The position numbers were made by a program, and so were the translations under genes. The notes beneath the pieces are model-generated. The model made no database searches, was not told the DNA's origin, and saw nothing but the letters and a program-made list of their open reading frames with translations. Below are positions 44,211 to 62,800 of a stretch of 64,000 nucleotides of DNA, one piece after another. The number at the start of each line of letters is the position of its first letter. Within the stretch, counting starts at the first letter, position 1. This DNA comes from Micromonospora carbonacea. Lineage in GTDB: Bacteria > Actinomycetota > Actinomycetes > Mycobacteriales > Micromonosporaceae. The DNA lies in NCBI RefSeq assembly GCF_014205165.1, contig NZ_JACHMZ010000001.1, positions 5,252,501 through 5,316,500 on the forward strand, given 5' to 3'.

Positions 44211-46975
44211 GGGACCGCCAGCCCGAACTGCTCGACCATGAGGGCGATGTCGAGCTTGGCCGTCCGCCCGTCTGGGTCGAGGCTGAGCACGGGGTACCCC
44301 TCGACCTGCAGCAGGCGGCGCAGGACGGTGAACGTGCCGGTGACCCGGTGCACGGGTATCCCGGCCCTGGTCGCCAGGGTCTCCAGGGTCGCCCGCCCGT
44401 TGCCGGCGACGAGGGTGGCGACCATGGCGGCCACCCGCTCGTCGGGCAGGGGCGCGCGGGTGCCCCGACGGTCGGCGTAGACGGGGCTGGCCAGCAGCGC
44501 CGCCACGAGGGCCGCCGCCGAATCGGCCGGGGCCGGGGACGACGGGACCTGTGGGGAGGTCGGAGCGGACGGGGGCGGCGCGGTCGCGGCGACCGGGGCT
44601 GGCAGGTCGAACAGGCCCTCGTCCTGCACCGGCGGCCGGGCGGGGCGGCGGGCGGGGCGGCGGTTCTCCGTCGGCGCAGGCTCGGGGGAGGTCGTCTCCC
44701 CCGCCGCCTGGCGCAGCGGCTCCCGCCACCACTCCGGGCTGGACACCGGCGCGCCCGCCCACCCCGGCACGGCGTTCTCGTCGTGGGCGGCGAAGAGCAG
44801 CAGCGGGATCGCCGCCTCGGCAGGGGCTGCCCCACCGTGGTATCCGGCCTTGCGCGGGCCGTACCGCAGCTCCTCCCGCCAGGGCAGGATCACCTCGCCG
44901 CCGCCGAGCGCCACCCGGCTGCCCTTGAAGAGCAGCTCGCCGTCACCGGGCTCGCCCGTCGCCGGCCGCCACCGGTTCTCGCTGGTGTCGGCGGGCCGCA
45001 GGACCGCCTCGGTGCCCCGGTCGACGACGTGGCCGTGGTCCGAGACCAGCACCACGACCCGGTCCTGGGCGACCACGAGCAGGTTCCGCAGCCCGTTGAC
45101 GGTGTCGGTGCTCCACTCGGTGATGCCGGGGTCGCTGCGGTCGAGGGCGTCGTCGATGGTGTTGATGACGGCGGCGACCAGCGGGACGGCCGGGTCACCG
45201 AGGGCGGCGGCCACCTCGGGGTCGACGGCCAGCCCGGCCGGGGTGCGCAGGTCGGACTTGTGCAACAGCACGCCGCCCGGGAACTGCTCGCGGAAGGCCC
45301 GCAGTTCGGCGCCACGGTCGCCCACGGCGATCCGCCCGCTGAACAGGCTGCACCGGTTGACCTGCGTGACCGTCGGCAGCGCGGCGAGGACGCCGACGCG
45401 GGGGCCGCCGCCGGGCGTCAGCTCCTCCCAGGCGCCGCCACGGCCGAGGGACTCGGCGATCTCGATGGCCGCCGCGGTTCCCATGCCGTCGAGGACGAGC
45501 ATCAGGACCCGTCGTCCGTTGTCCACGATGGGACGGACGACGCGGTCGAGCACGTCCTCCACGCGCAGCAGCGTGCCCGGGTCCCGCTCGGCGGTGGTGG
45601 TGTCCTGCAGCAGCTCGGCGAACTGGTGGTCGTGGCGGGCACGACGAGCTTCCACGGCCGCGTGCAGCAGCCGGTAGGCCTGCGCGACCTGCGGGTCGAC
45701 GTCCCCGACGAAGATGTCGAGGCGGGCCCGGTCGACCCAGCCGTCGTCGCGGACCTGCCGCTGCACGGCGTCGAGCATCGTGGCGGGGGCGGGCCCTTCG
45801 GGCGTGGCCAGCCAGCGCAGCAGGCGGACGGCCATCCGGGCGGTCTCCACCCGGGAGCGCTCGGCCGACCGGTGGGTCTCCACCTCGGCGAGCCGGTCCT
45901 GCGCCCGCTCGATCAGCTCACCGGCGGGCGAGACGGGAGCCCCGGCCGCCGGCACGGCGAGTCGCACGGACTCCCCGAAGGCACGCATCCGCTGTGTGAA
46001 GCCGGCCGGCAGCAGGTCGGACGCGGCGAGCCGCCCGGCGACGTCGATCTCGGCCGCGATGTCCTCCGCCCGGCGCAGCATCCGGCGCGCGTCGTGGCGT
46101 ACCGCGTGGTCGCCGTCGAGGGCCCGGTAGATCCACGCCTCGGTCGCCTCACCGAAGGCGATGGCCTGCGACTCCGTGAGGCGGGCACCGCCGAAGCGCG
46201 GCTCGAGCCGGGTGCGGGCGACCACCAGGTCCAGGTCGGGCCGCGACTCGGCGGCCCGGGGCCAGAGCACCCCGGCGAGCAGGCCGAGTGGTATGGCGTC
46301 GACGCCGTGCCCGGCTCCGACAGCGGCGAGGACCGGCACGGCGACCGGGCCGGCGACCTCGCGGAGGAACGTGGCGATCCCGTCGGACCATTCGGTGGGC
46401 AGGTCGCCGAAGCGGAGCTGGTTGGGTGCGTCGGTGCTCCACTGGAGGAGGCCGGCGCCGTCCAGTGCGTCGGGGTCGAGGCCGAGCACCGCACCGGCGA
46501 GGTGCCGCAGCGCGTGGTCCCGGGTGAGGATGAGGCCGGCGGGCGGCGGCCAGCCCTGGGTCGGGGCGAGGTCGGTAAGAGCGTCGGCGACCCATCGGCC
46601 GGTGCGCACGAGGGTGGAGTCGAGCCGCACCTGGCCGCCGAACACCTGGGTGACCAGGTCCCACGGGTCGACGCTGCGGCCCTTCTGCATGCTGACGTGG
46701 GTCAGCAGGCCGTCGCCCAGCTCCATGTCGGTGAGGTCGGTCAGCAGGACCAGCTTCTCGTGTCCGGCCCGGTCGGCGAGCGCGGCCCGCGCGGCGAGCG
46801 GCGTCCGGCAGGGTACGACCCGCACGGGCGTGTCCCCCACGGTGAGCACCGGCTCGTCGGTCCACTCGGGGCGGGCGTGCAGCACGATCGCGTCGCTGCC
46901 GTCGCGCTCGGCGAGCCACGACTCGACCTTGCGCCGCACTGCGGCGGGGCGGACGGCGGCCCGGGTGACGCTCAC
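44207..46975 (-). CDS. pglZ: BREX phosphatase-like protein PglZ
   Basis: 922 residues. It contains the alkaline-phosphatase superfamily PglZ domain, with metal-site motif VLMLVLDGMGTAAAIE near residue 495 and VVLVSDHGHVVDRG near 645. PglZ is the signature protein of all BREX systems and restrains the toxicity of PglX in Streptomyces coelicolor Pgl. The region from about 780 is Pro-rich and disordered, followed by a small C-terminal domain. The GTG at 46975 overlaps the pglY stop codon by 4 bases. Gene order pglY-pglZ-brxD-brxHI is that of type 2 BREX. Confidence 0.93.
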   Translation of the reverse strand: MSVTRAAVRPAAVRRKVESWLAERDGSDAIVLHARPEWTDEPVLTVGDTPVRVVPCRTPLAARAALADRAGHEKLVLLTDLTDMELGDGLLTHVSMQKGRSVDPWDLVTQVFGGQVRLDSTLVRTGRWVADALTDLAPTQGWPPPAGLILTRDHALRHLAGAVLGLDPDALDGAGLLQWSTDAPNQLRFGDLPTEWSDGIATFLREVAGPVAVPVLAAVGAGHGVDAIPLGLLAGVLWPRAAESRPDLDLVVARTRLEPRFGGARLTESQAIAFGEATEAWIYRALDGDHAVRHDARRMLRRAEDIAAEIDVAGRLAASDLLPAGFTQRMRAFGESVRLAVPAAGAPVSPAGELIERAQDRLAEVETHRSAERSRVETARMAVRLLRWLATPEGPAPATMLDAVQRQVRDDGWVDRARLDIFVGDVDPQVAQAYRLLHAAVEARRARHDHQFAELLQDTTTAERDPGTLLRVEDVLDRVVRPIVDNGRRVLMLVLDGMGTAAAIEIAESLGRGGAWEELTPGGGPRVGVLAALPTVTQVNRCSLFSGRIAVGDRGAELRAFREQFPGGVLLHKSDLRTPAGLAVDPEVAAALGDPAVPLVAAVINTIDDALDRSDPGITEWSTDTVNGLRNLLVVAQDRVVVLVSDHGHVVDRGTEAVLRPADTSENRWRPATGEPGDGELLFKGSRVALGGGEVILPWREELRYGPRKAGYHGGAAPAEAAIPLLLFAAHDENAVPGWAGAPVSSPEWWREPLRQAAGETTSPEPAPTENRRPARRPARPPVQDEGLFDLPAPVAATAPPPSAPTSPQVPSSPAPADSAAALVAALLASPVYADRRGTRAPLPDERVAAMVATLVAGNGRATLETLATRAGIPVHRVTGTFTVLRRLLQVEGYPVLSLDPDGRTAKLDIALMVEQFGLAVP

Positions 46976-49900
46976 GACGGCTGCTCCGACTCCTCGGCCT
47001 GCCAGGCAACGGTGATCCGCCGTCCGGCGGTGACCTCGGCGCGCAGCTCGCCGACGAGCCGATCCAGTTCCCGCACGTCGGCGACGGTGACGCGGCGGGC
47101 AGCGGGCGGCGGGAGGACGGGGTCCGCCGGCTCGCGCTTCCCCGGGATGACGACTCGCGGGTTCGAGTTGTCCGGCGGCGTGACGATGACCGGATCGCGG
47201 TCGACGACCGGTGGGTTCGGGACGACGGCCGGGTTCGGCGGGACGGGCGGGTCCGGGACGGGCGGGTTCGGGGGGACCGGCGGGGTGTGCTCGGCCAGCA
47301 GGGCGGCTGCGGCGGCGACGGCCTCCTGCAGCGCCTTGACCAGGTCGGAGCCGTGCTGCTCGTCCCGGGCGGCGGCTCGGAGCCGGTCGAGCAGCGCGCG
47401 GGCGCGGGGGTCACTGCCGGCCCGCTGCTCCACCGCGTTGATCAGCGGCCACTGCGCGCCGGCCAGCGCCGAGGTGAGCCGCTGGGCCTGCTTGAAGACG
47501 CCGCTCGCCGCCTGGCCGTCCAGGCCGCCGAGGCGCTCCTCCCCCTCGGCGGCCACCCCGACGAGCACCACGTCGTCCCGCTCGCCGGCGACCTGGGTGA
47601 GCAGCTCGGCGACCCGCCGGGCGGTGGCGAGCCGGCCGGTGGGCGCGCCCAGGTCCAGGCCGAGGGGCACCGCGTGCGTCTCCAGGCTGGTCACGAGGCT
47701 CCGGGCGGATTCGGCGTACGTGGTGGCGACCTCGCGCATGTCCTTGGCCATGTCGGTGAGGTTGGCGGGGGTGCGGAAGCGGGGCAGGACGACACCGAAG
47801 AAGGGCTGCCCGAACTCCAGGGCCGCCTTCCACGCCTTCTCGCCCGGCATCGGCGGGTGACGCAGCTCGAAGCGGTCCTCCACGCCGTTGACCGCGCCGA
47901 CGGTCGTCTTGACGCCGTTGTCGTACCAGCTCAACTGCTGTTCGAGCGCGAAGACGGCGATGATGAGGTTCTGCAGGTCCCGGTCGAATCCGCGCCGCTT
48001 CGGCACGTCCAGCCACGCCCGCAGCCGGTGCACGGGGAAGTGGTCGCGGTAGTCCTCCTTGGCCGCCTCCTGCAGCAGGTGCCGGCTCCAGTGGCAGGTG
48101 GTGATCGCCAGCACGTACCGGTGGTCGACCACCTCGCCGAGCTGCAGGGGGTTGCAGATGCGGCGGAGCACCCGCTGGTCGGCCGGTGAGTCGATGGAGA
48201 CGCCGCGGGTGGGGTCGGCGGCGGCCCGCCTGGCGTACTCCAGGACCTTGGCGAGGTCGCCGCGGGTGAGCGGCTTCTCGTCCACTGGCAGGGCCGGGGT
48301 GCCCGGGTACGACCAATCCAGCAGCTCGGCGGTGAGGTTGCGGAACGCGTCGGTGAGCGTGCCGCCCCGGGGGTCGCCGATGCGCAGCCCCTCGGCCAGG
48401 GTGTGCAGCACCCCGACGGTGTCGTCGTGCACGTCGGAGGGCTGCGGGCTGGCCGCCCCGTACGCCTGCTTGAGGGCGGTGACCAGGCCGTCGCGGAGCT
48501 GGCTCTGCCGCTGCAGCAGGTAGACCCGGCCCTGCTGCCGGTCGGCCTTGGGCCAGTCGGCGGCGAGGGTGTTGAGCCGCTCCCCCGCGCCGCCGACGCC
48601 GAGCAAGTAGTTGATCTTTGCGAGCTGGGCGACCCGGCTCATCATGTCGTCGGTGAGATACAGGGGCAGCCAGAACACGGTGTTGGAGCCCCGAGGCAGT
48701 TCCTCGATGCGGGCCCGGTCGGCGCTGCGCGGGTAGTCCTGCGGGTCGAACGGGTAGTCGATGACGATCCGCCACGACTCGCCCGGGGCGAGCAGCGCGG
48801 CGATCGGCATCGCGTCGGTGTCCCGGACGTTGCCGAACTTCACCTGGACGATGTGCCGCCGCCCCCGCCACTCGCGCGGCTGCTGCAGCTCGCCGTGGCT
48901 GCCCTCGCTGCCGGCCAGCCCCATCTCGGCGCTGATCAGCTCGCGCAGCAGTTGCTGCCGGACGCCGGCCGAGGTCTCGTTGTGCGGGACCAGGTCGAGC
49001 AGTTTGTCGAAGTCGACGGTATGCAGCTTGAGCGACACGACCGGGTCGTGGTCGTCGGTCAGGTGCAGCTCGCCGGCATCCTGTTCGATCTTGCGCAGCC
49101 GGTTGAGCACCATCGTGTTCTCGTAGCCGGGGATCGGCGAGGAGATGGAGCCGAAGTTCAGCGCGTGCAGCTTCGCGGCGGTGAGGCTGTGCAGGGCCGG
49201 CACGTCGGGCACCAGCGCGCCCAGCAGGATCGTCTTGACGAGCCTGTCGTCGAGCTGGAACTGGGTGTGCGAGGCGGCCTTCTCCTCGTCGATGCCGTTG
49301 AGGGTGAGCAGGATGGGGCGCAGCTTGCGCAGGTAGAGGGTGCGGGCGGCCTCGAACTGCTGGCGCAGCTTGGGCCGGTCGGGCAGCTCGCCGTGCAGCA
49401 CCAGCGGGTCGAACAGGGCGGCGACGCCGATGAGGTCGTTGACCCGCAGGCTGTCCCGCCGCTCGACCAGCAGCTCCGTCATCACCTTCAGCGCCGTCCG
49501 CTCGCGCTGCAGCGCCTGGGAGAGCGCGACGAGGGTCGCCACCAGGGCCGGCGAGAACGGATAGAGCTGGCGGAAGGCGGTGGCGTCGGAGCCGATGCCC
49601 GCGTCGCCGTACTGCGCGCCGAGCAGCAGGGTGTCCCACACCTCGCGGTGGTGCCGCACGGCGGCGAAGGCGTTGTCGATCACCGCGCGGGCCGTGTCGT
49701 CGTTCGGCTTGAGCAGCCGCTTCTCGGTGATCTCGGGCAGGTTCGTGTCGGCCAGGACGATCTCCCCGAACCGCCCCTGGAGGCTGCGCATCACGTGCGC
49801 CAGCGCCTCCCGCTCGGTGCCGCCGACCTGCGGGCCGAGGAAGTCCTCCAGGTTGCGCTGGCGGGCCACGAAGGAGACCAGCGGCAGCGGCCGGGCGGCG

Positions 49901-50778
49901 TCGGCGGACTCGACCAGCTTGTTGAGCTTCGCGCCCTCGGTGTTGACGAAGGTGTAGTCGGCGATCCGGCCGGAGAGCCAGAGGATCAGCTCGTCGAGGA
50001 AGAGCACGATCGCGTCGTACCCGAGGGCCTTCGCGTGCCGGGTGATCACCGCGAGGCCGGTGTCGAGGTCAAGGTATTCGGCGCTGTGCACCGCACCGCT
50101 GAAGAACGCCTGGGTGAGCGCGCTGACCAGGGCGTCGCGCTCCTTGGTGCCGGGCGGCTGCGCGGCGGCCTCGGCGTACCGCTGCGGGTTCCAGCCCTCG
50201 GCCTGGGCGCGCATCGCGGCCAGGCCGACGGCCGCGCCGGGCGCGGTCGCGCCGCCGCCCAGGGCCGCGAAGAACTTGTCGTCACCGAGCGTCCGGCGCA
50301 GGCCGGCGGCGTTCTCCAGCAGCGCGTCCGACCGGTGTACGGCGGGAACGGGCGCGTCCGGGTGGGCGACGGCGACGTGGCGCAGGTAGCCCTCAAGGAT
50401 CGCCTGCTCCACCGAACGCGCGTCGAGCATGTGCAGGGTCAGCGTGAGGAACTTCCGGCCGGGCAGCCAGGGGTCGGCGGCGACGACCGGGCCCGTCAAG
50501 TTCCGCACCTTCCGGGCCTCGGGGTTGTGCGCGAGGACCTCCCGCAGCACGGCCATGAAGTGCGACTTGCCGGAGCCGAACGAGCCGTGCAGGAACGCCG
50601 CCTGGGAACGGCCGGTGGTGACCGCGTGCCCGATCCGGCGCAGCGCGTCGGCGAAGTTGTCCCGAAGCTGGTCGGTGACCACGTACCGGCTCAGATCCGC
50701 GCCCTCGGCGGCCTTCACCACGAAGTCGCCCTCACCGACGGACGTCGGGATGTCGATCAGGTCGCGCAGCAGCGTCAC
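46972..50778 (-). CDS. pglY: BREX ATPase PglY (BrxC-like)
   Basis: 1268 residues, close to the size of S. coelicolor PglY. Walker A is HGSFGSGKS at residues 64-72, in the N-terminal AAA-like ATPase domain beginning DLIDIPTSVGEGDFVVKAAEG. The long C-terminal part is helical with a Pro-rich segment near 1165-1200 (repeated PPVPPNP-like units). It is the BrxC-type large ATPase of the system. GGAGGA precedes the GTG at 50778. It is the first gene of the second BREX operon, divergent from the qatB-like gene. Confidence 0.92.
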   Translation of the reverse strand: MTLLRDLIDIPTSVGEGDFVVKAAEGADLSRYVVTDQLRDNFADALRRIGHAVTTGRSQAAFLHGSFGSGKSHFMAVLREVLAHNPEARKVRNLTGPVVAADPWLPGRKFLTLTLHMLDARSVEQAILEGYLRHVAVAHPDAPVPAVHRSDALLENAAGLRRTLGDDKFFAALGGGATAPGAAVGLAAMRAQAEGWNPQRYAEAAAQPPGTKERDALVSALTQAFFSGAVHSAEYLDLDTGLAVITRHAKALGYDAIVLFLDELILWLSGRIADYTFVNTEGAKLNKLVESADAARPLPLVSFVARQRNLEDFLGPQVGGTEREALAHVMRSLQGRFGEIVLADTNLPEITEKRLLKPNDDTARAVIDNAFAAVRHHREVWDTLLLGAQYGDAGIGSDATAFRQLYPFSPALVATLVALSQALQRERTALKVMTELLVERRDSLRVNDLIGVAALFDPLVLHGELPDRPKLRQQFEAARTLYLRKLRPILLTLNGIDEEKAASHTQFQLDDRLVKTILLGALVPDVPALHSLTAAKLHALNFGSISSPIPGYENTMVLNRLRKIEQDAGELHLTDDHDPVVSLKLHTVDFDKLLDLVPHNETSAGVRQQLLRELISAEMGLAGSEGSHGELQQPREWRGRRHIVQVKFGNVRDTDAMPIAALLAPGESWRIVIDYPFDPQDYPRSADRARIEELPRGSNTVFWLPLYLTDDMMSRVAQLAKINYLLGVGGAGERLNTLAADWPKADRQQGRVYLLQRQSQLRDGLVTALKQAYGAASPQPSDVHDDTVGVLHTLAEGLRIGDPRGGTLTDAFRNLTAELLDWSYPGTPALPVDEKPLTRGDLAKVLEYARRAAADPTRGVSIDSPADQRVLRRICNPLQLGEVVDHRYVLAITTCHWSRHLLQEAAKEDYRDHFPVHRLRAWLDVPKRRGFDRDLQNLIIAVFALEQQLSWYDNGVKTTVGAVNGVEDRFELRHPPMPGEKAWKAALEFGQPFFGVVLPRFRTPANLTDMAKDMREVATTYAESARSLVTSLETHAVPLGLDLGAPTGRLATARRVAELLTQVAGERDDVVLVGVAAEGEERLGGLDGQAASGVFKQAQRLTSALAGAQWPLINAVEQRAGSDPRARALLDRLRAAARDEQHGSDLVKALQEAVAAAAALLAEHTPPVPPNPPVPDPPVPPNPAVVPNPPVVDRDPVIVTPPDNSNPRVVIPGKREPADPVLPPPAARRVTVADVRELDRLVGELRAEVTAGRRITVAWQAEESEQPS

Positions 50779-51127
50779 CGGTGTTCCTCCAGCCTCCCCA
50801 GGGTGCCCGACACGCTACCCATCGACCCGAATGCTCGGGTACCGCACCGGATGGCCATTTTGCGGGCCGGGCGACGGGTCCATGGTGGACCGTTGGCGGA
50901 CAGTTGCGCCGTTCGTCGGAGAAGGCGCAGCTCAGCCGGCAACCTCTCAGCAAAGGACACTGATCGGCAGCCCGCATAGGTCAACTTCCCGACAGATGCG
51001 CACGCTCGATGAGAACTGGCTGGCCAACCGGCCCGGGGATCGAGATCGCAACCGTCGGGATATAGACGACTACTTTTAGTTCTCATACACTCCGCTCGGC
51101 GGCTGCCTACCCGGTGGGGATGAGCAG
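50779..51127. other. Divergent control region between pglY and the qatB-like gene
   Basis: 349 bases with no convincing gene. The minus-strand promoter of pglY must lie on the left. The right part has an AT-rich patch (about 51055-51092) with a -35/-10 pair for the plus strand. A 27-codon frame (50996-51079) exists but lacks a ribosome site. Confidence 0.55.
51063..51091 (+). promoter_or_regulatory. Candidate promoter of the qatBC-like pair (-35 TAGACG, -10 TACACT)
   Basis: TAGACG (51063-51068) and TACACT (51086-51091) are 17 bases apart in an AT-rich patch unusual for this genome, 36 bases before the ATG at 51128. Pattern-based inference. Confidence 0.5.
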
Positions 51128-51928
51128 ATGGGCACATCGACGAAATTGCCGGGACCGCGCGGCGGGCCCTGGACACCGACTCGCGGCCAGTTGAGCCGAT
51201 GGGGCGGCGCGGCTGGCCGGCCCGCGCCCTCAACGGATCATTCGTCCCCGGCGGGCCGCCCCTGCCCTGACACCCGGGAATCGGCGGAACACCTCGCCAG
51301 GCGGTGCCGGCGCGCATTGACGGACACCCTCCGCAGCGACCCGGAGATGTCCGGTCTCCACCAGGCCGCTCTTCGTGCCGGCCACGAACTCGTCAGCGTC
51401 CTCGCGGCCTTTCTCGACCGCGAATCAACCCTGTGGACCGAGGTGCCTGGTGCCACGAGCCAGACGCGAGAGGACGAGTTCGTGGCGCGGTTCGTCGCCG
51501 TCGTCGGTGGCGAGGGCGGCCTGGTGGGCGACTCCGTCGCGCGTCGCGCGGCCCGCCGGACAGCCGAGAAGCTACTGGACGGCTGCCCAGCGGCGGCCTC
51601 CGCCCTTCGCTCCGGGCGAGAACCCGCGCGCATCGACGGCGAGGCCTTCTGCGCCCTCTACCGGTTCTTCTTCGGCGAGTTCGTGGGCCAATTCGTCAGC
51701 ACGGTGATTGCCGAGGGCCTGCCCATGGTGATGCCGCTGGCACTTCCGTTCGATCCCACGGGCCTCATCGCCAGCGCCGTCACGAGACAGGTCATCCAGG
51801 TGCTCCCCGACCCCTGCGCCGAGGCCGGCGGCCGTGAGCCTCGGCAGAGTCTGCTGGCCGAGACGGCTGACGAACTGGTGACCGACATGGTCGAGCACGC
51901 ATTCGGGTTACGGGAGACGAGCCCATGA
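51128..51928 (+). CDS. QatB-like protein of a Qat-type anti-phage pair
   Basis: 266 residues. The N-terminus MGTSTKLPGPRGGPWTPTRG has the form typical of QatB (MGTS followed by a Gly/Pro/Trp-rich segment), and the rest is a helical domain (about 55-260, including ALRAGHELVSVLAAFLDR and CALYRFFFGEFVGQFVSTVIAEGL). QatB works with QatA, QatC and QatD in Qat defence. The next gene, QueC-like, overlaps its stop codon by 4 bases, exactly as qatB-qatC. No qatA ATPase gene lies upstream. After Met removal the N-terminal residue would be Gly. The match is from memory of the family, without a search. Confidence 0.68.
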   Translation: MGTSTKLPGPRGGPWTPTRGQLSRWGGAAGRPAPSTDHSSPAGRPCPDTRESAEHLARRCRRALTDTLRSDPEMSGLHQAALRAGHELVSVLAAFLDRESTLWTEVPGATSQTREDEFVARFVAVVGGEGGLVGDSVARRAARRTAEKLLDGCPAAASALRSGREPARIDGEAFCALYRFFFGEFVGQFVSTVIAEGLPMVMPLALPFDPTGLIASAVTRQVIQVLPDPCAEAGGREPRQSLLAETADELVTDMVEHAFGLRETSP

Positions 51929-53223
51929 CCACGCACCGGTACGCCTACCACTACGTCACTGACGGGGCGGCGAGGACTTCCCACGCCGGCCATCTCGTGA
52001 ACGACCGGCTGTTCCGGGCCCGAGGCAGCGCCATCGAGCGAAACCTGTCCCCGGCGCCACCGCCGCCCGTCTGGGCGCAGGATCTCCTCCGCATCGCCAA
52101 GGCCACCTACCTCGCCGACAAGCTCTCCCGGCGGGACCGCACACCGGACCGCTGGACTCGGGACATCGACCTGTCCATCCAACTCGTCGAGCCGGACAGG
52201 TGGAGCAATCGCGCCGAGCCGCTGCTGGCCGCGTTGCTGGAGACCCTGACGGCGGACCGCTGGGAAATTCGGTTCCGTCCCGGCGCGGTCGGCCACCGGG
52301 GCGTACCCGGCTGGCTGTTCGACGACGCACCGGCGGAGGAGGTGGCGCTCTTCTCCGGCGGACTCGACTCCACCGCCTACGCGGCAGAACGGGTTGGGAC
52401 GGCCGGCGGCCCGCTGTTGCTGGTGTCCTACTACGACCCCGCGCTCAAGCACCGACAGGAGGAACTCCTCGACGCCGTCCGGCGTCTCGGCTCCCGCCCG
52501 CTTATACACCGGGCCGTGCTCCTGCAGTCCAGGGCCAACGGCGTACGCCTCGAGCCGAGTTCCCGCTCCCGGGGGCTCCTGTTCCTGTCCACCGCCGTCT
52601 ACGCGGCTGCCGCGCATCTCGCCTCCCGGGTCACGGTCCCCGAGAACGGGCAGTTGGCGGTGAACCCGCCGTTGACACCGGCGCGCATTGCCGCCTGCTC
52701 CACCCGCTCCGTGCACCCTCGGACCCTGCACCTGGTCAATCAGCTCATCGAAACGGTCGGCGGGAGGGTCGAGGTGGTGAACCCTCTGTTGTTCGACACC
52801 AAGGGTGAGGTGTGCCGCCGAGCCCTCGACGCGGGACTGCCACCCGCCACACTGATGGCGACGGTGAGCTGCGGCCACCCGCCCCGGAACTACAGCGCCA
52901 GCCGCTTCGACCACTGCGGGCACTGCTACCCCTGCCTGGTACGACAGTCCGGCTTGCTCGCGGCCTCGGGACGGGACGACACGCCGTACGAAAGGGATGT
53001 CTGGGCCCCGGCAGCCGGCAGGAACGACGTCGGCCATCGCGACGCCCTGCACGCATGGCTGGGACGGGGTTTCGGCATCCGCGAAGTGACGACAGACGTT
53101 CCCCTCCCCCCGCAGACAGACACATCCGCCCTCCTGCGGACCCTGCTACGGGGGCGGAGGGAACTGAACGACCTCTTCGCCCGCCATCACATGCCCGGCT
53201 CGACCAGAACGCCAGCAGCCTGA
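51925..53223 (+). CDS. QatC-like protein (QueC-family PP-loop enzyme)
   Basis: 432 residues, nearly twice the length of housekeeping QueC (about 230) but the usual size of QatC. The ATP-binding PP-loop is SGGLDST at 144-150 and the zinc-site cysteines are C316, C331, C334 and C337 (VSCGHPP...HCGHCYPCLVRQ). QueC turns carboxydeazaguanine into preQ0; defence-associated relatives use the chemistry on a partner instead. The N-terminal ~135 residues are specific to the longer group. The ATG at 51925 overlaps the previous stop (ATGA). No queuosine or deazaguanine genes (queD, queE, tgt) and no qatD (TatD-type) gene are adjacent. Confidence 0.8.
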   Translation: MTTHRYAYHYVTDGAARTSHAGHLVNDRLFRARGSAIERNLSPAPPPPVWAQDLLRIAKATYLADKLSRRDRTPDRWTRDIDLSIQLVEPDRWSNRAEPLLAALLETLTADRWEIRFRPGAVGHRGVPGWLFDDAPAEEVALFSGGLDSTAYAAERVGTAGGPLLLVSYYDPALKHRQEELLDAVRRLGSRPLIHRAVLLQSRANGVRLEPSSRSRGLLFLSTAVYAAAAHLASRVTVPENGQLAVNPPLTPARIAACSTRSVHPRTLHLVNQLIETVGGRVEVVNPLLFDTKGEVCRRALDAGLPPATLMATVSCGHPPRNYSASRFDHCGHCYPCLVRQSGLLAASGRDDTPYERDVWAPAAGRNDVGHRDALHAWLGRGFGIREVTTDVPLPPQTDTSALLRTLLRGRRELNDLFARHHMPGSTRTPAA

Positions 53224-53271
53224 ACAGCCTCGGCGCCCCGGTTCTCGCGGCAAGCCAGGTGCCGGGCCCGT

Positions 53272-55239
53272 TCAGAAGGGATTCAGAGCTGCCAGGGCGG
53301 CGGGCAGGTCGTCGCCCTCGGCCAGCAGCACCGGCCCCTCGTCGGCGTGGCGGTGGATGGTGCAGCCGCCCCGGGTGAACCGGACGGTGAGCGGCTGGTC
53401 GGGGTGCCCGGCGGCGAGGCGCAGCAGGGCCGGCACCGGGTCGGCGGGCAGCGGCCGGGCGCCGGACCGGGGCACGGGGACCGGCGCGTCCGGGTCGGCG
53501 GGGACGGTCTCGGGGAGGGTGGCGTCGAGGCCCTCGACGCAGTGCGCCACGGCCGCCTCCGGGCTGGGCCGGCACGGCAGGTCGTCGGGGTGCACCGGGG
53601 CGGCCGGCGGGCGCAGCTCGACCGACCAGAGCACGCCGTGCGCCCGCAGCAGCCCAGCCGGGTGATTCCGCAGATCGACCAGATTGACCACCAGCGCCAG
53701 GTCCAGGCCGTGGGCGAGCCGGAGCAGCTCGGCCAGCGGCGGCGCGTCGGGGCGTACGGCGGTGACCAGCAGGCGCGCGGCGGGCAGCGCCGGGCCGACG
53801 GCGGCCACCTGCTCGGCCACCGGGTCCGCGCCCGCCCAGGGCAGGGTGACGTAGCCCTCGCGCACGTCCGGCGAGAGGTCGTGGCCGCCGTCGGCCTCGG
53901 CGAGGTCTTCCGGGCGTACGCCGAACACGGCCGCCCAGGCGGCCAGCCGGTAGCGTTCGGGGAGCCGGACGACGAGCCGGCCGCCCGCCCCGCCGCCCGC
54001 CGTGGTGACCGCCTCGGGTGTGCCGGCCCACCAGGCCAGGTGCACCACCCGGTGCCGCAGGTCGGTCAGGGTGAGCAGCGCCGCGTCGTGCACCCGGCCC
54101 GTGCCGCCGCAGGTCGTGCAGACGCGCCGGGTCGGGCGGCAGTCGGGGCAGCGGCGCTCGGGCAGCGGCGCACCGAGCCACGGCGGGTCCGGGGGCTCGG
54201 CCGCGCGTTGCAGCGGCGTCCGGGTGCGGCGGAGGACCTGCCCGGTGGACTGCTCGACCAGGGTTTCCACCGGCTCGCCGGTGCGCAGCCCGGTGTGCCA
54301 CCAGCGGCCGTCCCGCCAGATCGCCTGCGCCCCGGGCCGCCCGTCGCCGCCCGGCGGCCCCGCGCAGTCGGCGCGGACGCGGCGGGCGACCCCGGCCACG
54401 TCGACCGTCGCCGCCGGCAGCAGCGGCCGGAGCGGGTCGGGGCACAGCGTGCGGGCGGGGGCGGCCTCGCCGCGTTCGCCCAGCCCGGCCAGCGCGTCGG
54501 CCACGTCGGTGGCCGCGAGGGCGGCGGCCAGGTCGGCGTACGCCGCCTCCGGCGGGTGGGCGGGCACCGGGGAGCCGGGCACCTCGTAGCGCACGGCCCA
54601 GCGCAGCTCCCCGTCGTGGCGGCGGGCCTCCACGACCAGGTCGAGCAGGAGCAGGTCGGCCAGCGCGCAGAGCCGGGCCAGCCGCCGCCCCGGGTCGACC
54701 GGGGGCGGGGCGGCCGACCGGCCCAGCCACACCCGCCACGCCGGCCGCGCGGCCTCCGCGACGGCCCGCGCTGCCAGCTCGTGCCGCTGCGCCGCCGGCA
54801 GGTCGGGCCGCCAGGCCGCCGGCAGCCGTACGCTCGGCGGCTCCCCGACGGTGGCGGGGGCGACGCCGGCCCGGGCGGCCAGTTCGCGCACCCGGGGCGT
54901 CAGCTCCACCGCCCAGCCGCCCGTCGCATCCGGGCGCGGGTCGAGGTCGGCCGGCAGCACCTCGTGGGAGGCGACCGCGCCGGTGTCCAGGTTGGCCACC
55001 GTGAGCACGAGCTGGGCTCGCAGCCGGCCCCGCAGCCCGCAGCGGCGGCAGGCCACGGCCACGCTGCCGGCGCCCCGGCACAGCCGGCACCGCCGGTACG
55101 GCTCCCGCTGCCCGCCGACGCCGCCGCCCGGCGCGTCGTCGGCCAGGTCGAGGTTGCCGTAGCGGGTGCAGCGGCACGGGTCGAGCCGGAAGGTCAGGCC
55201 GTCGCAGTCCGGGCAGGCGACGGTGGTCGCGGCGGTCAC
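53272..55239 (-). CDS. Large zinc-ribbon protein, function unknown
   Basis: 655 residues, not assigned. It has three cysteine clusters: ACPDCDGLTFRLDPCRC near the N-terminus, YRRCRLCRGAGSVAVACRRCG (about residues 50-70), and RRCPDCRPTRRVCTTCGGTGRV near the middle, the latter with the CxxCxGxG pattern of DnaJ zinc centres. The remainder is mixed alpha/beta, with no catalytic motif recognised. The GTG at 55239 overlaps the preceding gene's stop codon by 4 bases, so the two are coupled. It converges with the QatC-like gene with only 48 bases between. A defence role is possible from location only. Confidence 0.72.
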   Translation of the reverse strand: MTAATTVACPDCDGLTFRLDPCRCTRYGNLDLADDAPGGGVGGQREPYRRCRLCRGAGSVAVACRRCGLRGRLRAQLVLTVANLDTGAVASHEVLPADLDPRPDATGGWAVELTPRVRELAARAGVAPATVGEPPSVRLPAAWRPDLPAAQRHELAARAVAEAARPAWRVWLGRSAAPPPVDPGRRLARLCALADLLLLDLVVEARRHDGELRWAVRYEVPGSPVPAHPPEAAYADLAAALAATDVADALAGLGERGEAAPARTLCPDPLRPLLPAATVDVAGVARRVRADCAGPPGGDGRPGAQAIWRDGRWWHTGLRTGEPVETLVEQSTGQVLRRTRTPLQRAAEPPDPPWLGAPLPERRCPDCRPTRRVCTTCGGTGRVHDAALLTLTDLRHRVVHLAWWAGTPEAVTTAGGGAGGRLVVRLPERYRLAAWAAVFGVRPEDLAEADGGHDLSPDVREGYVTLPWAGADPVAEQVAAVGPALPAARLLVTAVRPDAPPLAELLRLAHGLDLALVVNLVDLRNHPAGLLRAHGVLWSVELRPPAAPVHPDDLPCRPSPEAAVAHCVEGLDATLPETVPADPDAPVPVPRSGARPLPADPVPALLRLAAGHPDQPLTVRFTRGGCTIHRHADEGPVLLAEGDDLPAALAALNPF

Positions 55240-55577
55240 CGGGGCGGCCGGGCGGAGCACGGCCCGTCGTGGTCGGTGCGGCGGGCGCAGCGGCGGCGGT
55301 CGGGCAGCGGCAGGTCGCAGAAGACCGGTTCGCGTACGCCATGCTCGTCCTCGGCCGAGACGGTCGTCTGCCCGGCGTCCACCTCGGGCAGGAACGTCAC
55401 CGACCGGGCCAGCGCCGCCGCGAATCGCCGGGCGGTGGGCAGGTCGGCGGCGGTGAACGGCAGGTGCACCACCCAGCGCCCGCTCACCGGCGGATCGCCT
55501 GGCGGGTGCGGACCGGACGGACAGGATGGGGAATCGCGCGCACGGCGCACCTCCTCGACGACCATTCGATGCGGCAA
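55236..55577 (-). CDS. Small conserved hypothetical protein with C-terminal Cys motif
   Basis: Up to 113 residues. The conserved part begins near SGRWVVHLPFTAADLPTARRFAAALARSVTFLP and ends in CDLPLPDRRRCARRTDHDGPCSARP, a likely small metal site. It overlaps the zinc-ribbon gene by 4 bases. The start is uncertain: ATG 55577 gives the full length, while a GTG at 55487 starting at VSGRW fits the conserved domain better. Function unknown; probably works with the downstream protein. Confidence 0.6.
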   Translation of the reverse strand: MPHRMVVEEVRRARDSPSCPSGPHPPGDPPVSGRWVVHLPFTAADLPTARRFAAALARSVTFLPEVDAGQTTVSAEDEHGVREPVFCDLPLPDRRRCARRTDHDGPCSARPPR

Positions 55578-55729
55578 TTAATGGGCCGTGGAAATTCCAC
55601 GGCCATCGCCTTTGTCAGGGCCATCTTGTAAGGTCAGAGGCACTATCACAACGAATGCCCCCTCACACTGTTCCGCTAATCGTCCGCAACATTCGGTGTT
55701 CCAGAACGGGGCGTCGAGATGTTGCAAAA

Positions 55730-55745
55730 CGCAACGGGGAAAGGA
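55730..55745 (+). promoter_or_regulatory. Palindrome GTTGCAAAACGCAAC upstream of the XRE regulator
   Basis: An inverted repeat of GTTGC around AAAAC lies just before the ribosome site of the XRE gene, with a further GCAACATT to the left. A plausible autoregulatory operator; inference. Confidence 0.4.
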
Positions 55746-55751
55746 GGCCGG

Positions 55752-56633
55752 ATGGCCGAGGACATGGGCTCGACGGTGCCGCGACGCCGGCTCGGCAAGG
55801 CACTGCGTGACCTGCGCACCGAGGCGGGCATCACCCTGGACGCCGCCGCCGAGGCGCTGGAGTGCAGCCGGCAGAAGGTGTGGCGCATCGAGAGCGGGCT
55901 CGGCTCCGCGCGCGGCGTCGACGTGCGCGCCATGTGCGAGTTGTACGCGGCGGCGCCCGACATGACCCGCGCGCTGCTCGCGCTGGCCGCCGAGACCAAG
56001 ACGAAGGGCTGGTGGCACGCCTACGGCGACGCCATCCCCGACTGGTTCGAGCTGTACGTCGGCCTCGAATCCGCCGCCTCCCGGCTGCGCTTCTACAACG
56101 AATCGATGGTGCCTGGGCTGCTCCAACACCGGGACTACGCGCTTGGGGTCTATCAACACCGCACGGAGGTGAGCGACGAAGATCGGGAGCGCTTCGTACA
56201 GGTCCGGCTGCAGCGTCAGGCCCTGCTCAAACGTCGCCTGCCACCGCCGCCGAAGCTGGATGTGATCCTCTCTGAGGCAGCCTTGCTACGCACGGTCGGC
56301 GACGCTGCAACGATGGTGAACCAACTCCGTCACCTGTTGGCGCTGGCAGACATGGCAACGGTCTCGATCCGAATCTTGCCGCTCGCCGCCGGCCTGCACC
56401 GTGGCTCTGAGGCAGGTTCCTTCGTGCTGCTTGAGTTTCCGCTAGGAAATCGAGCGACCCCCGAGCCATCAGTGGTCTACAGCGAGTCATGGACGGGCGC
56501 TCTCTACCTCGACCGGCCCGAGGAGTTCAACGCTTACGAGAAGGTCTGGACAAGCCTGGATCTACTCGCCCTCGATGAAGGACAATCGAGGCACTTCATT
56601 AACAAGATCATCGGGGAGGTCCACCATGGCTGA
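55752..56633 (+). CDS. XRE-family regulator with DUF5753 domain
   Basis: 293 residues. An N-terminal helix-turn-helix (about residues 8-66, LGKALRDLRTEAGITLDAAAEALECSRQKVWRIESG) is followed by the DUF5753 sensor-like domain (WFELYVGLESAASRLRFYNESMVPGLLQHRDYA). Such proteins are abundant in actinomycetes and pair with a small DUF397 protein, as here. AAAGGAGG precedes the ATG at 55752. The DUF397 gene starts 8 bases before its stop codon. The target genes are unknown. Confidence 0.9.
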   Translation: MAEDMGSTVPRRRLGKALRDLRTEAGITLDAAAEALECSRQKVWRIESGLGSARGVDVRAMCELYAAAPDMTRALLALAAETKTKGWWHAYGDAIPDWFELYVGLESAASRLRFYNESMVPGLLQHRDYALGVYQHRTEVSDEDRERFVQVRLQRQALLKRRLPPPPKLDVILSEAALLRTVGDAATMVNQLRHLLALADMATVSIRILPLAAGLHRGSEAGSFVLLEFPLGNRATPEPSVVYSESWTGALYLDRPEEFNAYEKVWTSLDLLALDEGQSRHFINKIIGEVHHG

Positions 56634-58323: not shown

Positions 58324-59835
58324 TCATCCGGGAAGGCCGCAGAAGCGACGGTGGTGCTTCAGTCGCTTCGGGCTGATGCCGTGTTCCTCGTGCCGGTGCA
58401 GCCTGCCAATCTCCTTGTCGTCGCTCGTCCGGCGCACCACGAACTCGTCATCGATGTAGATGGCGAAGAAGTCGAACTGGACGTGGTGGTTGGGGCAGAG
58501 GCAGAGCAGGTTGCTGATCTCGTCGGGCCCGTCGTGCGGCTTCCCCAGCCCCTGGATGTGCGCAGCCTCGCTGTAGTACCCGTCGCGGGTCTCCAGCCGA
58601 ACGCCGCAGACCTGGCACTGGTGGTCGTACATCTGCTTGATGGCCGCTGCGAACCTGCTGCTACGGACGATGCGCTCGACCTGGGCGGACTTTCTCTTGG
58701 CCGGCCCGCTCGCGCCCGGCTCACCGCCGGTCAGGGACGCCACGTCGATTGTGCCGGCAGCGGAGTCGTAGCCGGCGAGCCCGACCTGGCTCAACAGCGC
58801 CGGCCGGTCAATGCCGGGGGCCAACGCCCTGGACAGCATCGCCACGGCCCGGCCCCGCACCTCGACGTTGTCGAACAGCTCCGCGACGACTGGCAGAAAG
58901 CCCTGATAGGAACCCGTGGAACCGCCCGCTGTGGTCTCGCCGTGGAAACCTGAGGGGTCGACTTCCCATCCTTCCGGGGCCCTGACCTCCCACAGCCCGC
59001 TGCCGGCCAGAGGGCCCGACGGGTAGGGCATGGCCGCTCCGGGCCTGTCTGCCGCACCGTACCGATCGAGGATCGGCGTCAGGCTGGCGGACATGTCCTC
59101 CGACCGGACGAGCCGCTCCTCACCGGCCTCGATCCTTCCGATCGCCCAGAGGACCACCAACGGCAGGTTCCGCGCCGCCGGATCGTCCCTGCTGCGGCGC
59201 GAGGAGGTGACGAGATCCTGCAGAGCCGCGAAGAGTTGCTTGCGCTTCATCCGGGGCGCAGGCGGCTCGGGGGACGCATCCGGGCCGGGCATGGTCGGCA
59301 GAAGCGACGAGATAGCGGCGTATTGGGCGGCGGTGACCAGGGTGAGGCTGCGCAGCGGGTTGGGCAGCCCGAGTTTGGCCAGGATTGGCCCGGCCGGCAC
59401 CGGCTGGTCGAACTGCTCGACCTCGCCCAGCGCCACGATGTGTTCCCAGGTCTGCCCGTCGTCGGCGGTCTGCCACACCCGCTTTGCCACCGCCGGATTC
59501 CGAAACAGGTGCAGGATCCGAGCCCGGGAGTAGAACGTCTTTCCGGCATAGAAGAGGACGTGGTCGCCAGCCTGGCGGTTCCGGAGCGCCCGGACCTTGG
59601 CGTTGTTCACCTGCTGACTCGGCGTCGAACCCCACAACCGGGCGACCCCATCCGGGTATAGGCGCCGCAGGATCGCCAGCTCGGGCCCGAGTTCCGCAGC
59701 GATCTCCGTCAACCGGATGCCCCGCTTGACCGAATGCTCGTAGTGCTGCGGGCCACGCTCCCTGGCCCCACCACGCAACTGCAGCAGCAACTGCGGCCTC
59801 TGGCTGGCTTGCCGCTGTTTCCCCTGGTCGCTCAC
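58324..59835 (-). CDS. HNH endonuclease with N-terminal PUA/EVE-like domain, downstream of pglX
   Basis: 503 residues. The N-terminal region (about 40-180) includes AGDHVLFYAGKTFYSRARILHLF and WEHIVALGEVEQFD, similar in style to PUA/EVE-type folds that read modified bases. The C-terminal HNH nuclease has CQVCG (407), AAHI (424), NLLCLCPNHH (447-451) and FD, like McrA-type enzymes that cut modified DNA. AGGAGG lies 9 bases before the GTG at 59835, which is preferred over the longer open frame; the start lies 13 bases after the pglX stop codon, so it is in the same operon. A role against phages with modified DNA is inferred. Confidence 0.72.
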   Translation of the reverse strand: MSDQGKQRQASQRPQLLLQLRGGARERGPQHYEHSVKRGIRLTEIAAELGPELAILRRLYPDGVARLWGSTPSQQVNNAKVRALRNRQAGDHVLFYAGKTFYSRARILHLFRNPAVAKRVWQTADDGQTWEHIVALGEVEQFDQPVPAGPILAKLGLPNPLRSLTLVTAAQYAAISSLLPTMPGPDASPEPPAPRMKRKQLFAALQDLVTSSRRSRDDPAARNLPLVVLWAIGRIEAGEERLVRSEDMSASLTPILDRYGAADRPGAAMPYPSGPLAGSGLWEVRAPEGWEVDPSGFHGETTAGGSTGSYQGFLPVVAELFDNVEVRGRAVAMLSRALAPGIDRPALLSQVGLAGYDSAAGTIDVASLTGGEPGASGPAKRKSAQVERIVRSSRFAAAIKQMYDHQCQVCGVRLETRDGYYSEAAHIQGLGKPHDGPDEISNLLCLCPNHHVQFDFFAIYIDDEFVVRRTSDDKEIGRLHRHEEHGISPKRLKHHRRFCGLPG

Positions 59836-59848
59836 ACCCTCGTCCCTC

Positions 59849-62800
59849 CTACTCACCACTACTGGCCGGGGCGTTCAGCCCGCGAAGCGTGATCAAGGTC
59901 CGACGGTCGGCCCCGAGCTGGGACAGCTCGGCGTCGACCAGGTCCGTGAAGAACTGAGCCGGCGACCCGGGGAAGTCGGGCCGCTCATCGACGTACCACT
60001 GGTGCAGCCACGGCTCCAGCTCCGCGATGCCCGCCAGTAGCGGCAGCAGGCGTTCCGCCGGCCAGGCCGCCTGAAGCTTGCGGTCGAGGTAGACGGTCGC
60101 CAGCGCCTGGGCCTGCGCGAGGTGGTCCCACCCGGCCCAGCCGAGCAGCACCGTGCCGTCGTTGTCCCGGCCCGCCTTCGGGTACGAGATGAACCGCTCC
60201 TTCGGCACGTCGAGCTTGCCGCGCGCCCGCCAGTAGGATGCCTTGGCGAAGTCCGCCGAGCTGTACTTCGGCGGAACGTCTACCTGCACGCTCTCGCCCG
60301 CGTCCTCCAACCGCTGCTGCGCCCAGGTGCGCTCCCACTGCGCCCGCTTCCGCAGCCCGGACGGCTTGTAGCGGTCAACGGGCAGGTAGGGCACGTGCTC
60401 GTCGGCAACCAGCTTGGCGACCGTCTTCGTCAGGTCGTAGTCGTCGCGCCCGGCCCACAGCTCCAGCACCGAGCGGAAGTCGTCGTCGTGGCGCACCTTG
60501 TCCGCGAGCTGTGCCACCGACTGCGGCGTCGAACGGGTGCCCCACAGCTCCGGTGCCTCCAGCCGATCCAGGAGCCAGTCCCGCAGTGCCTTCGCCTGCA
60601 TGGCGTCCCAGCCGTCGGTGGCCCACCGCCGCTTGCACTCCGGCCGCTCGATCAGCGCAATGTTGCGGTCCGACTCGATGCCCTCGATCCGCCGCTGCAC
60701 CAGCGCCCGGTAGTCATCCGGCCAATGCGCAGGCAGCTCCGTGATTCTCTGAAACTTGTGGTTGCGATGTTCGAACCAAGTGGTGTCAGTTGCGCCAGCG
60801 TCGATCTCCCGTGCCATGTAGATTGCGAACGCCCGCTCACTTGAGCCAAGTCGGGGGGGATTCGCGCAAGTCAGATCGTCACTACACAGCCCGTAGAGTC
60901 GGTAGACCTCCCAGTCCATTTCTTCTTGCAGCGCAATCATTTCGCCCCGGATCAGGTCGTACTCGCGCTGCGCCGCACGCAGCCGCTGGCGGGTCGGGAC
61001 CCCTGACTCCGCGACCGCCGCCGGGGTTAGTCTGGAGAGTCGCTTCGCCAGCGAATCGAGCGCCCGCGCCCGCGCCAACGGGAAGTCGCCCGGCAGCGGA
61101 AACTCCTGCAATTTGGTGCCGGTGAACTCAAATCGATGTTCCCACGGCTCGTCCGCCCCCGCCTGCTCAGCACCAGGTCGGCCCTTGTTGTGACTGACCT
61201 GTTTGAGCCAGAAGCAGGCGGTCGAACTGTTCAGCACCCCGAGCAGCCGCAGGTGCTCGTCCTCCGTCGCTCCCTCCGGCAACTTGATCACCGGTGCCGA
61301 CTGCTTGAAGACCTTTCCGCCCCGGTCCAACACAAAGTGGTTGTGCGTCGCCACGAAAGCAAAGGAGATGGAGTTCGGGTTCCTGAAGCGAGCAGCAAAG
61401 AACATCGAGTACTCGAACCAGGCCAGACCCCGCTGGATCTGACTTTGTCCGTAGGCAACGCGGTCAACAAGGATTCGACGCAACGGCCACAGAACCTGAT
61501 TCAGCGCAGGGCAGTTTTGAGCGGATAGGGTAGATTCGTCATAAGGCCAAATAGATGCAACCGGGCCTTCGATCACCCAATCACGGGTTACGTCGCCTTC
61601 AACTATCGGCCGCTGGAACCTGATGGGGACTGATCGGCGATGCAGAAATCCTGCACCAACCATGTAGGCACTATCCTCCCGGGTCACAGCACCGAATCCG
61701 ATCTCGGAAACCGACTCTTGAAGCAGGGAGTGAGCGTTTCGACGAAGTGAGAGCATCACGTCAGAAGCCCCACCACCACTGAGGCTCCAAGGGTGAGATT
61801 TCAGCCGCCCACGTGGCGTATCTACAACGCTTACCCAATCTGCGGCATCCCGACGCCCTTCTACACCATCCACGATGGCAGACCAGACCAGACCAGCAGC
61901 CGGATCGGCTGGCTGCGATGGCTCGCCGCGAACTCCAAGAATGGTGAGGACTTTCTCCGAATGCCGGCGACTTTTGGCACGTCCGATCAGGATGACCGTC
62001 GGCGTGCCGTGACCCGGAATGTACGCTCCGGAGGTGTCGATGACCTCCGTCAACTCAACCTGATGCGCGAAGTAGTCTTCGATCAGCTTCTTACCGAACT
62101 CGCGCTTCATGAAGGCGTTTCCGGTGATCTGGCCGACGTGACCCGCCCCGTCGCCGTGCTCGTCGGAGCGCTTCGCCAAGTCGAAGAAGCGCTTGGCGAA
62201 CGGCACCGTCAGCGCGTACTGCCGGTGGCAGACGTCGGGGTAGATGTCGCGGTAGAGCTTGTTGCGGGCCGAGTCCGCCACGGTGATGTACGGCGGGTTG
62301 CCGACCACCACCGTGTACTGCCCCTCTTCGAGGTAGTCGGCGAGCATGTCGGCGTCCTCGGTCGCGTACGCGAAGCCGCTCTCGCCCTTGGCGTACTCAA
62401 GAAGGTCGCCCTGGTGCCGGGACTTGCGCCCCCAGTGCAGCAGTGAGTCGCCCGTCGCCACCCGCACCGGCCAAGCCGGCGTGCGCTCCAGCGACGTGAG
62501 CCCGCACTCCTTCATCGCGGCGACCAGCAGCCGGAACCGGGCGATCGCCACCGCGAACGGGTTGATGTCCACGCCGGTCACCTGGCCGAGCGCCCGCTCG
62601 ACCAGCACCCGCACGTCCGTCGCCGGCTCCCGGTCCCGCCACTTGCGCACCAGCCGGCCGAACGCGCCGAGCAGGAAGTGCCCCGACCCGCACGTCGGGT
62701 CGATGACCGACGTGTCGGGCAGGCCGAACTCCTTCACCGCCGGCTCGAAGGTGCGGTCGAGGATGAACTCCTCCACGAAGTCCGGCGTCTGCAGCAGCGC

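Follow-up and report, generated by a model that had tools for sequence, protein, structure and literature searches.

The closest described relatives of the two genes analyzed here belong to qatABCD systems. In Pseudomonas aeruginosa, QatB binds QatC in a 1:1 complex, and the available portion of the work describing it leaves the reaction itself unresolved (PMC13279940). That portion also reports that QatBC alone retains full defense against lambda-vir, that the Escherichia coli pair is strongly protective, and that defense is abolished by P. aeruginosa QatB G2D, by QatC S156A/S161A, and by mutants of QatC T278 and T280, two residues that it terms invariant. In a second study, roughly one in three QatC-cluster genes is reported to have qatA and qatD alongside, so that QatC lacking these neighbors may be frequent in its data; the same source gives 7-carboxy-7-deazaguanine (CDG), made by QueE, as the substrate of Cap9 (PMC13329287). 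Here we analyze a qatB-like gene and a qatC-like gene in a 64,000-nucleotide stretch of the Micromonospora carbonacea genome (contig NZ_JACHMZ010000001.1, positions 5,252,501 to 5,316,500), hereafter called the window. We conclude that the pair is a real, conserved two-gene Qat variant carried as cargo inside the type 2 bacteriophage exclusion (BREX-2) locus of a soil actinomycete. The pair is probably a self-sufficient defense module, made up of qatBC only and presumed to be defensive, from a QatC lineage of actinomycetes in which neither qatA nor qatD accompanies the pair.

No paper joining QatC with BREX was found in the literature searched, subscription papers and preprints lying largely outside it. 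In their accessible text, PMC13329287 does not mention BREX, Micromonospora, Streptomyces, or "Actinomycet," the BREX survey PMC12839542 contains neither "QueC" nor "Qat" in its main text, and the Actinobacteria survey PMC10482375 contains no "Qat."

Two overlapping genes encode a QatB-like protein and a full-length QatC

The pair and the motifs discussed below are located in the window as follows.

51128..51928, plus strand: qatB-like gene, 266 amino acids, putative substrate/effector (predicted fold, MGTS start)
51128..51139, plus strand: MGTS N-terminal motif of the QatB-like protein, with Gly2 as the candidate modification site
51925..51928, plus strand: ATGA, four bases common to the adjoining ends of qatB and qatC, suggesting translational coupling
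51925..53223, plus strand: qatC-like gene, 432 amino acids, by homology a QueC-family ATP-dependent enzyme (profile, PDB, and fold matches)
52354..52371, plus strand: SGGLDS pyrophosphate-binding motif, QatC residues 144 to 149 (SGGxDS on the 9zee_B alignment)
52699..52719, plus strand: STRSVHP, QatC residues 259 to 265, end of the QatB-binding loop (alignment to solved QatC)
52870..52935, plus strand: zinc-site cysteines 316, 331, 334, and 337 of QatC (alignment and sequence check)

An earlier note on this DNA had described both open reading frames (ORFs) and their ATGA overlap, the first protein starting MGTSTKLPGPRGG, as well as a QueC pyrophosphate-binding loop (PP-loop) and four cysteines in the second, and all of these were recovered. 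The protein of the larger gene matched the PADLOC QatC profile (4.6e-65) and solved QatC chains in the PDB (1.2e-42 and 2.6e-40), and it scored 229.6 bits against NCBIfam QatC NF041925, below the cut-off of 280. Its predicted model (pLDDT 83) superposed over its full length on the QatC of 9y01/9y02, with TM scores of 0.79 to 0.81, and far more poorly on QueC. Residues were mapped by alignment to the solved chain 9zee_B, with which the residue numbers of PMC13279940 agree. On that alignment, the adenosine-binding residues R233 and F237 correspond to R216 and F220, the QatB-binding loop N265-H282 corresponds to N247-H264, and T278 is kept as T260. T280 is replaced by S262, such that the T278/T280 invariance does not extend to the window QatC; apart from that serine, the pair retains the residues required by the model in the accessible text of PMC13279940. 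We conclude that the second gene is a full-length QatC by sequence, predicted fold, and aligned active-site residues.

The smaller protein had no match in the hidden Markov model (HMM) libraries run (PADLOC, Pfam, and NCBIfam), but its predicted fold retrieved QatB from the PDB, and an hhalign comparison supported QatB with an E value of 1e-7. The HMM check proposed in the earlier note thus came out strongly, if below the NCBIfam cut-off, for QatC and negative for QatB, for which the fold provides the support. GTS directly followed the start codon in 33/36 loci with a QatB-like ORF. This is the open count, as set A2 (7/8 MGTS proteins plus 20 loci) was partly chosen for an MGTS start and its invariant MGTS is circular. 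At 28/36 loci, the stop of qatB coincided with an ATGA or GTGA in the qatC frame. The predicted fold and the MGTS start support a QatB-like identity for the smaller gene.

Compared with QatB-QatC of qatABCD systems (9y01/9y02, 9zee, and 9vlk), the window pair shares the QatC fold, SGGxDS, the zinc site, the QatB-binding loop, and the C-terminal helices, together with the QatB fold, the MGTS start, and the B-C order with overlap. It differs in being without qatA and qatD, in the serine for T280, in belonging to an actinomycete clade of its own, and in its profile scores, QatB being unseen by the HMM libraries and QatC falling below the NCBIfam cut-off. Cap9 of type IV CBASS (cyclic oligonucleotide-based antiphage signaling system) is likewise a QueC-family enzyme with a partner protein that carries an N-terminal glycine motif. 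Unlike that partner, however, the window partner is all helical and QatB-like, the CDG-binding Tyr and Asp are absent in the window QatC, and QatC is about twice the length of Cap9 (median of about 185 residues in the accessible part of PMC13329287). No CD-NTase (cGAS/DncV-like nucleotidyltransferase) match was found among the 10 window neighbors scanned. With canonical QueC, QatC has in common a Rossmann-like core, a PP-loop, and a four-cysteine zinc site, whereas it has N- and C-terminal extensions, has no YPDC, and does not lie beside queD/queE.

The pair belongs to a lineage without QatA and QatD

The earlier note had reported that qatA and qatD were missing, and neither turned up in a normal operon beyond the window: no ORF matched QatA or QatD profiles in the window or in the fetched flanks (16.5 kb to the left and 8.5 kb to the right). 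The whole genome (7.53 Mb, single contig) contains one KAP NTPase, about 434 kb past the right edge of the window. It scored 52 to 53 bits against the QatA profile versus 544 to 647 bits for 12/14 actinomycete qatA genes beside the other QatC type. Two TatD-family matches lie at 6.06 and 1.22 Mb. With KAP and TatD genes only at a distance, a partner qatA or qatD elsewhere in the genome was rejected.

By a quick method, we computed a QatC tree with 109 rows from 78 loci of a genome-contig scan, whole-genome loci, and three plasmids (L and G numbers denote loci and genomes, respectively). Same-contig duplicates (L001, L007 to L009, L011, L015, L018, L020, L021, L089, and L090) and domains of less than 100 bits or at most 260 residues (L032, L077, L120, and L121 among them) were dropped. 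A single branch (Shimodaira-Hasegawa-like approximate likelihood ratio test, 99) separated the 35 rows with this QatB from the 42 rows with QatA and/or QatD, and 0/500 shuffles were as low. The 35 loci fall in Micromonosporaceae, Streptomyces, Nocardia, and Pseudonocardiaceae. In the clade of 41 rows to which they belong, 6 of them without a QatB found, QatA or QatD occurred in 0/41 within flanks of at most 10 kb on each side, several being shorter at contig ends. The serine at the T280 position was present in all 37 readable rows of the clade proper (38 rows), 3 of which also have serine at T278, and in 6/35 readable rows among the 42 with QatA/QatD. As the pairing recurs in other families, it is not a chance pair of ORFs. 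We conclude that the pair is a lineage across several families, not the deletion of one locus. The "reduced two-gene module" put forward in the earlier note is therefore the best-supported reading, although "reduced" may mislead for such a lineage.

Clade members were also found in genome draws. Of 300 Micromonosporaceae genomes, 34 had a match (16 clade, 8 qatABCD-type, 2 sister group, and 8 other QueC-like), with classes assigned by tree and fetched contexts, or by score alone in three weak genomes (G006, G084, and G098). A class draw of 394 genomes gave 10 with a match: 6 were qatABCD-type, and the clade was represented, besides the window, by 3 genomes, all of one genus. QatC relatives were present on 72 viral contigs, where the best segment was 36% identical, besides three short pieces (39 to 48% over 29 to 49 residues), and in 137 plasmid records, all less than 60% identical, the best 40 of the 137 being 31 to 36% identical. 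Clade loci were at least 43% identical, except for a 37% piece outside the tree (L077). Judged by identity alone, without tree placement, no viral or plasmid carrier looks like a clade member.

The remaining 26 tree rows carried neither label and comprised 23 more distant QueC-like rows and 3 from Myxococcota inside the qatABCD side. For the three Myxococcota rows (L057, L058, and L065), no QatA, QatB, or QatD was detected, and thus loss of QatA and QatD may have occurred more than once. A Micromonosporaceae sister group of the clade (L106, L108, and L119) likewise had no detected QatB, QatA, or QatD. More distant QatC/QueC-like rows (L059 to L063, L066, L068 to L072, L076, and L081 to L083), several of them ORFs of more than 600 codons, had no QatA/QatD detected nearby.

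The pair occupies an exchangeable pocket of BREX-2

The surrounding genes and the inserted stretch are listed below.

40756..42912, minus strand: DEAD-box helicase of the BREX-2 locus (PF00270, 107 bits)
42909..44210, minus strand: BrxD-like ATPase of the BREX-2 locus (PF10923, 471 bits)
44207..46975, minus strand: PglZ of BREX-2 (NF033446, 911 bits)
46972..50778, minus strand: PglY, BREX-2 ATPase, divergent from the pair (PADLOC BrxC/PglY, 1438 bits; NF047891, 915 bits, below the cut-off of 1700)
50937..53284, no strand: stretch between flanks homologous to the qatBC-less L147 site (2348 bases in the window versus 184 in L147)
53272..55260, minus strand: zinc-ribbon-like protein, 662 amino acids, convergent with the pair (homologs in L140, L147, and L149)
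55719..56633, plus strand: XRE/DUF5753 regulator of the BREX-2 pocket (PF19054, 168.5 bits)
58324..59859, minus strand: HNH endonuclease adjoining pglX (PF13391, 43 bits; NF045808, 74.9 bits, below the cut-off of 180)
59849..63373, minus strand: PglX, BREX-2 methyltransferase (NF033451, 1734 bits; start by codon usage, with an upstream start at 63640 possible)

As the earlier note had recognized, pglY is divergent from the pair, the zinc-ribbon-like gene is convergent with it, and the locus is type 2 BREX (Pgl), with PglZ, the BrxD-like ATPase, and the helicase on one side and PglX on the other. The gap between pglX and pglY holds variable genes, and the pair is cargo of this locus rather than core. 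The nearest relative of the window PglY is that of L147 (86% identical), a locus without qatBC in which pglY comes immediately after the zinc-ribbon-like gene, with no insert between. The flanks of the two loci were 87.8% and 81.7% identical by blastn on the two sides, with homology stopping at window positions 50936 and 53285. In a closely related BREX-2 locus, ShosA (213 bits) occupies the pglY-side pocket (L140:6686-8333) together with a protein that matches ShosT weakly (E value, 0.0028). Because these loci lacking qatBC also carry the zinc-ribbon-like and XRE genes, the two genes are part of BREX-2. G+C content at third codon positions was 0.82 for qatB and 0.86 for qatC versus 0.95 to 0.97 for pglY, pglZ, and the zinc-ribbon-like gene; XRE, HNH, and PglX were also low. 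These observations fit qatBC being an exchangeable cassette in the BREX-2 pocket, which holds nothing in L147, ShosTA-like genes in L140, and qatBC in the window, L092, and L093.

BREX-2 genes were present in the fetched flank of 14/35 tree rows, the only one in L012 being a short PglW-like piece. The recurrence that the earlier note had asked about was observed: qatBC without QatA/QatD is nested between pglY and pglX in L092, L093, L014, L022, and L123, as in the window. Elsewhere qatBC is divergent from pglW (L091, L096, L097, and L102), precedes pglW-pglX-pglY (L013), follows pglZ and a helicase (L017), or lies near pglW (L019). BREX-2 PglX was found in 76/300 genomes of the Micromonosporaceae draw and 52/394 of the class draw. 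Among the 19 clade genomes, PglX was present in 10, within 20 kb of the pair in 8 and on different contigs of drafts in the other 2; no PglX match was found in 9/19, including G059, which is only 82% complete. For comparison, 5 of 14 genomes with qatABCD-type Qat had PglX, 1 of them within 20 kb (G051). As 9 of the 19 pair-bearing genomes have no PglX match, BREX is a frequent neighbor and not a required partner. Clade QatC occurred in 9/76 PglX genomes of the family draw, which is not the distribution of a BREX-2 core gene.

Most hosts examined have no recognizable CDG pathway

The 33 QatC-bearing genomes were screened for QueC and QueE, the latter with two models (TIGR04508 and TIGR03365). 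A full-length QueC match was obtained in 3/19 clade genomes (G298, G274, and G237) and in 2/14 qatABCD-type genomes (G079, and G057 at 82 bits); partial PF06508 matches in several genomes, which scored less than 26 bits and covered the initial third of the model, were left out of the count. Among clade genomes, TIGR04508 QueE was above cut-off in exactly the same three, where it adjoins QueC. The other 16/19, that of the window included, had no full-length canonical QueC match and no QueE above cut-off with the two models. The window genome has one PTPS/QueD-like gene and a 30-bit, sub-cut-off TIGR03365 match; comparable matches reached 28 to 31 bits in G000, G168, and G173 and 59 bits in G059. 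As the window genome has no canonical QueC and no QueE above cut-off, any group joined to QatB is probably not host-made CDG.

A candidate mechanism and its alternatives

In the mechanism that we propose, production of QatB and QatC would be coupled and the two proteins would assemble into a complex. Once Met1 is removed, the QatB tail would present Gly2 to the active site of QatC, which would consume ATP in activating a carboxylate and attaching it to that residue, and the modified QatB would then halt phage growth. The joined group would probably be other than host-made CDG, and BREX-2 would be a frequent genomic neighbor, perhaps for joint protection or regulation, rather than a required partner. 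A fuller account, whose chances we place slightly short of even, is that of a long-established two-gene Qat lineage whose QatC attaches a group other than a host-made 7-deazaguanine to the N-terminal glycine of QatB. The hosts would have lost the deazaguanine pathway or lacked it from the start, and the pair, as BREX-2-pocket cargo, may be a second line once BREX is overcome.

The larger gene might instead be a biosynthetic QueC (preQ0 synthase) with no defense role, as the QueC Pfam model scored above cut-off on the C-terminal half of the protein and many homologs among the 120 matches listed are named 7-cyano-7-deazaguanine synthase in their source records. That public label may have arisen because such QatC proteins score under the NCBIfam cut-off, and many actinomycete records bearing it are probably QatC. 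TIGR00364 QueC, however, gave 19.7 bits (cut-off, 150.3) versus 229.6 for the QatC model, the full-length fold match was QatC and not QueC, the YPDC motif was not found in the QatC sequence, and QueE above cut-off was not found in 16/19 hosts, such that a purely biosynthetic role is scarcely credible. A qatABCD operon in decay, its qatA and qatD already lost, would suit the broken members, in which QatC is in pieces (L032, L102, and L105) or interrupted by a stop (L030, where the MGTS start is also absent), but the single clade across several families, the flanks of 41 rows with neither QatA nor QatD, and the coupled frames in 28/36 loci make a remnant very improbable.

The two remaining alternatives grant the pair a function but change its partner or its substrate. 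BREX ATPases had been suggested in the earlier note as partners, as had the nearby nuclease. The nuclease was rejected, as this HNH gene adjoins pglX also in pair-less L138 and L140 and was not seen at nested L092. Favoring BREX as a partner, the pair is found attached to it repeatedly, in no fewer than four arrangements and four genera, PglX was commoner in clade genomes (9/16) than in the rest of the family draw (67/284; Fisher P = 0.007), and PglX lay within 20 kb in 7 of the 9 PglX-bearing clade genomes of that draw, with a random-placement chance of about 1e-14, a value that overstates the case by ignoring defense-gene clustering and the close kinship of three Micromonospora copies (L096, L097, and L102). 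Ordinary clustering of defense genes would also put the pair near BREX, however, and the difference from qatABCD-type genomes in BREX proximity was barely significant (8/19 versus 1/14; P = 0.047) and in the family draw alone was not (7/16 versus 1/8; P = 0.19), both uncorrected for kinship. Moreover, mapping the nested label onto a phylogeny of 26 PglY proteins took 5 changes, about as many as for shuffled labels (mean, 5.6), near kin have ShosTA-like genes or nothing in the same pocket, and the clade genomes without PglX speak against BREX as a required partner. We regard BREX as an improbable partner, and the link may simply reflect stacking of defense genes. A less improbable but still unlikely alternative is that clade QatC performs the Cap9 reaction, placing CDG from an unrecognized QueE, the medium, or the phage onto QatB Gly2. 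Cap9 does so in type IV CBASS, and QatC shares with it the fold, the ATP site, and a partner bearing an N-terminal glycine, according to PMC13279940; canonical QueC with an adjacent QueE is, in addition, present in three clade genomes. Against it stand the 16 clade genomes with neither and the replacement of the CDG-holding Tyr and Asp of QueC and Cap9 by Thr and Ser in the window QatC. We conclude that a self-sufficient qatBC module remains the probable reading.

If so, the pair would support, from a natural system, the view of QatB-QatC as the functional core of Qat, previously shown, in the available part of PMC13279940, by gene deletion from longer operons. It would also offer a minimal pair for learning what QatC attaches to QatB, a question left open there. 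If a host without canonical QueC or recognizable QueE is defense competent, host-made CDG and host-made deazaguanylation would be excluded; the interest thus lies in a natural minimal pair together with hosts that challenge the deazaguanylation model. BREX-2 loci, in turn, carry interchangeable cassettes (qatBC, ShosTA-like genes, or none) at one place.

Other genes and sequences near the pair

The 662-amino-acid zinc-ribbon-like protein was unmatched in PADLOC and Pfam, and its sole NCBIfam match was at chance level (E value, 0.19). The HNH protein beside pglX shows sub-cut-off likeness to phosphorothioate-DNA restriction enzymes. Upstream of qatB, the stretch at window positions 51058 to 51090 is similar, by eye in an alignment, in the nested Micromonospora loci L092 and L093 and is perhaps a promoter or operator. 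In three loci of a Streptomyces group with no BREX genes in the flanks examined (L023, L024, and L122), homologous genes come after the pair. A scan of L023 identified one of them as a type I-like methyltransferase, and a scan of L024 identified another as a specificity subunit. Finally, L012, L013, L025, and L104 have a common gene near the pair, the L013 copy of which contains a Schlafen group 3 helicase domain.
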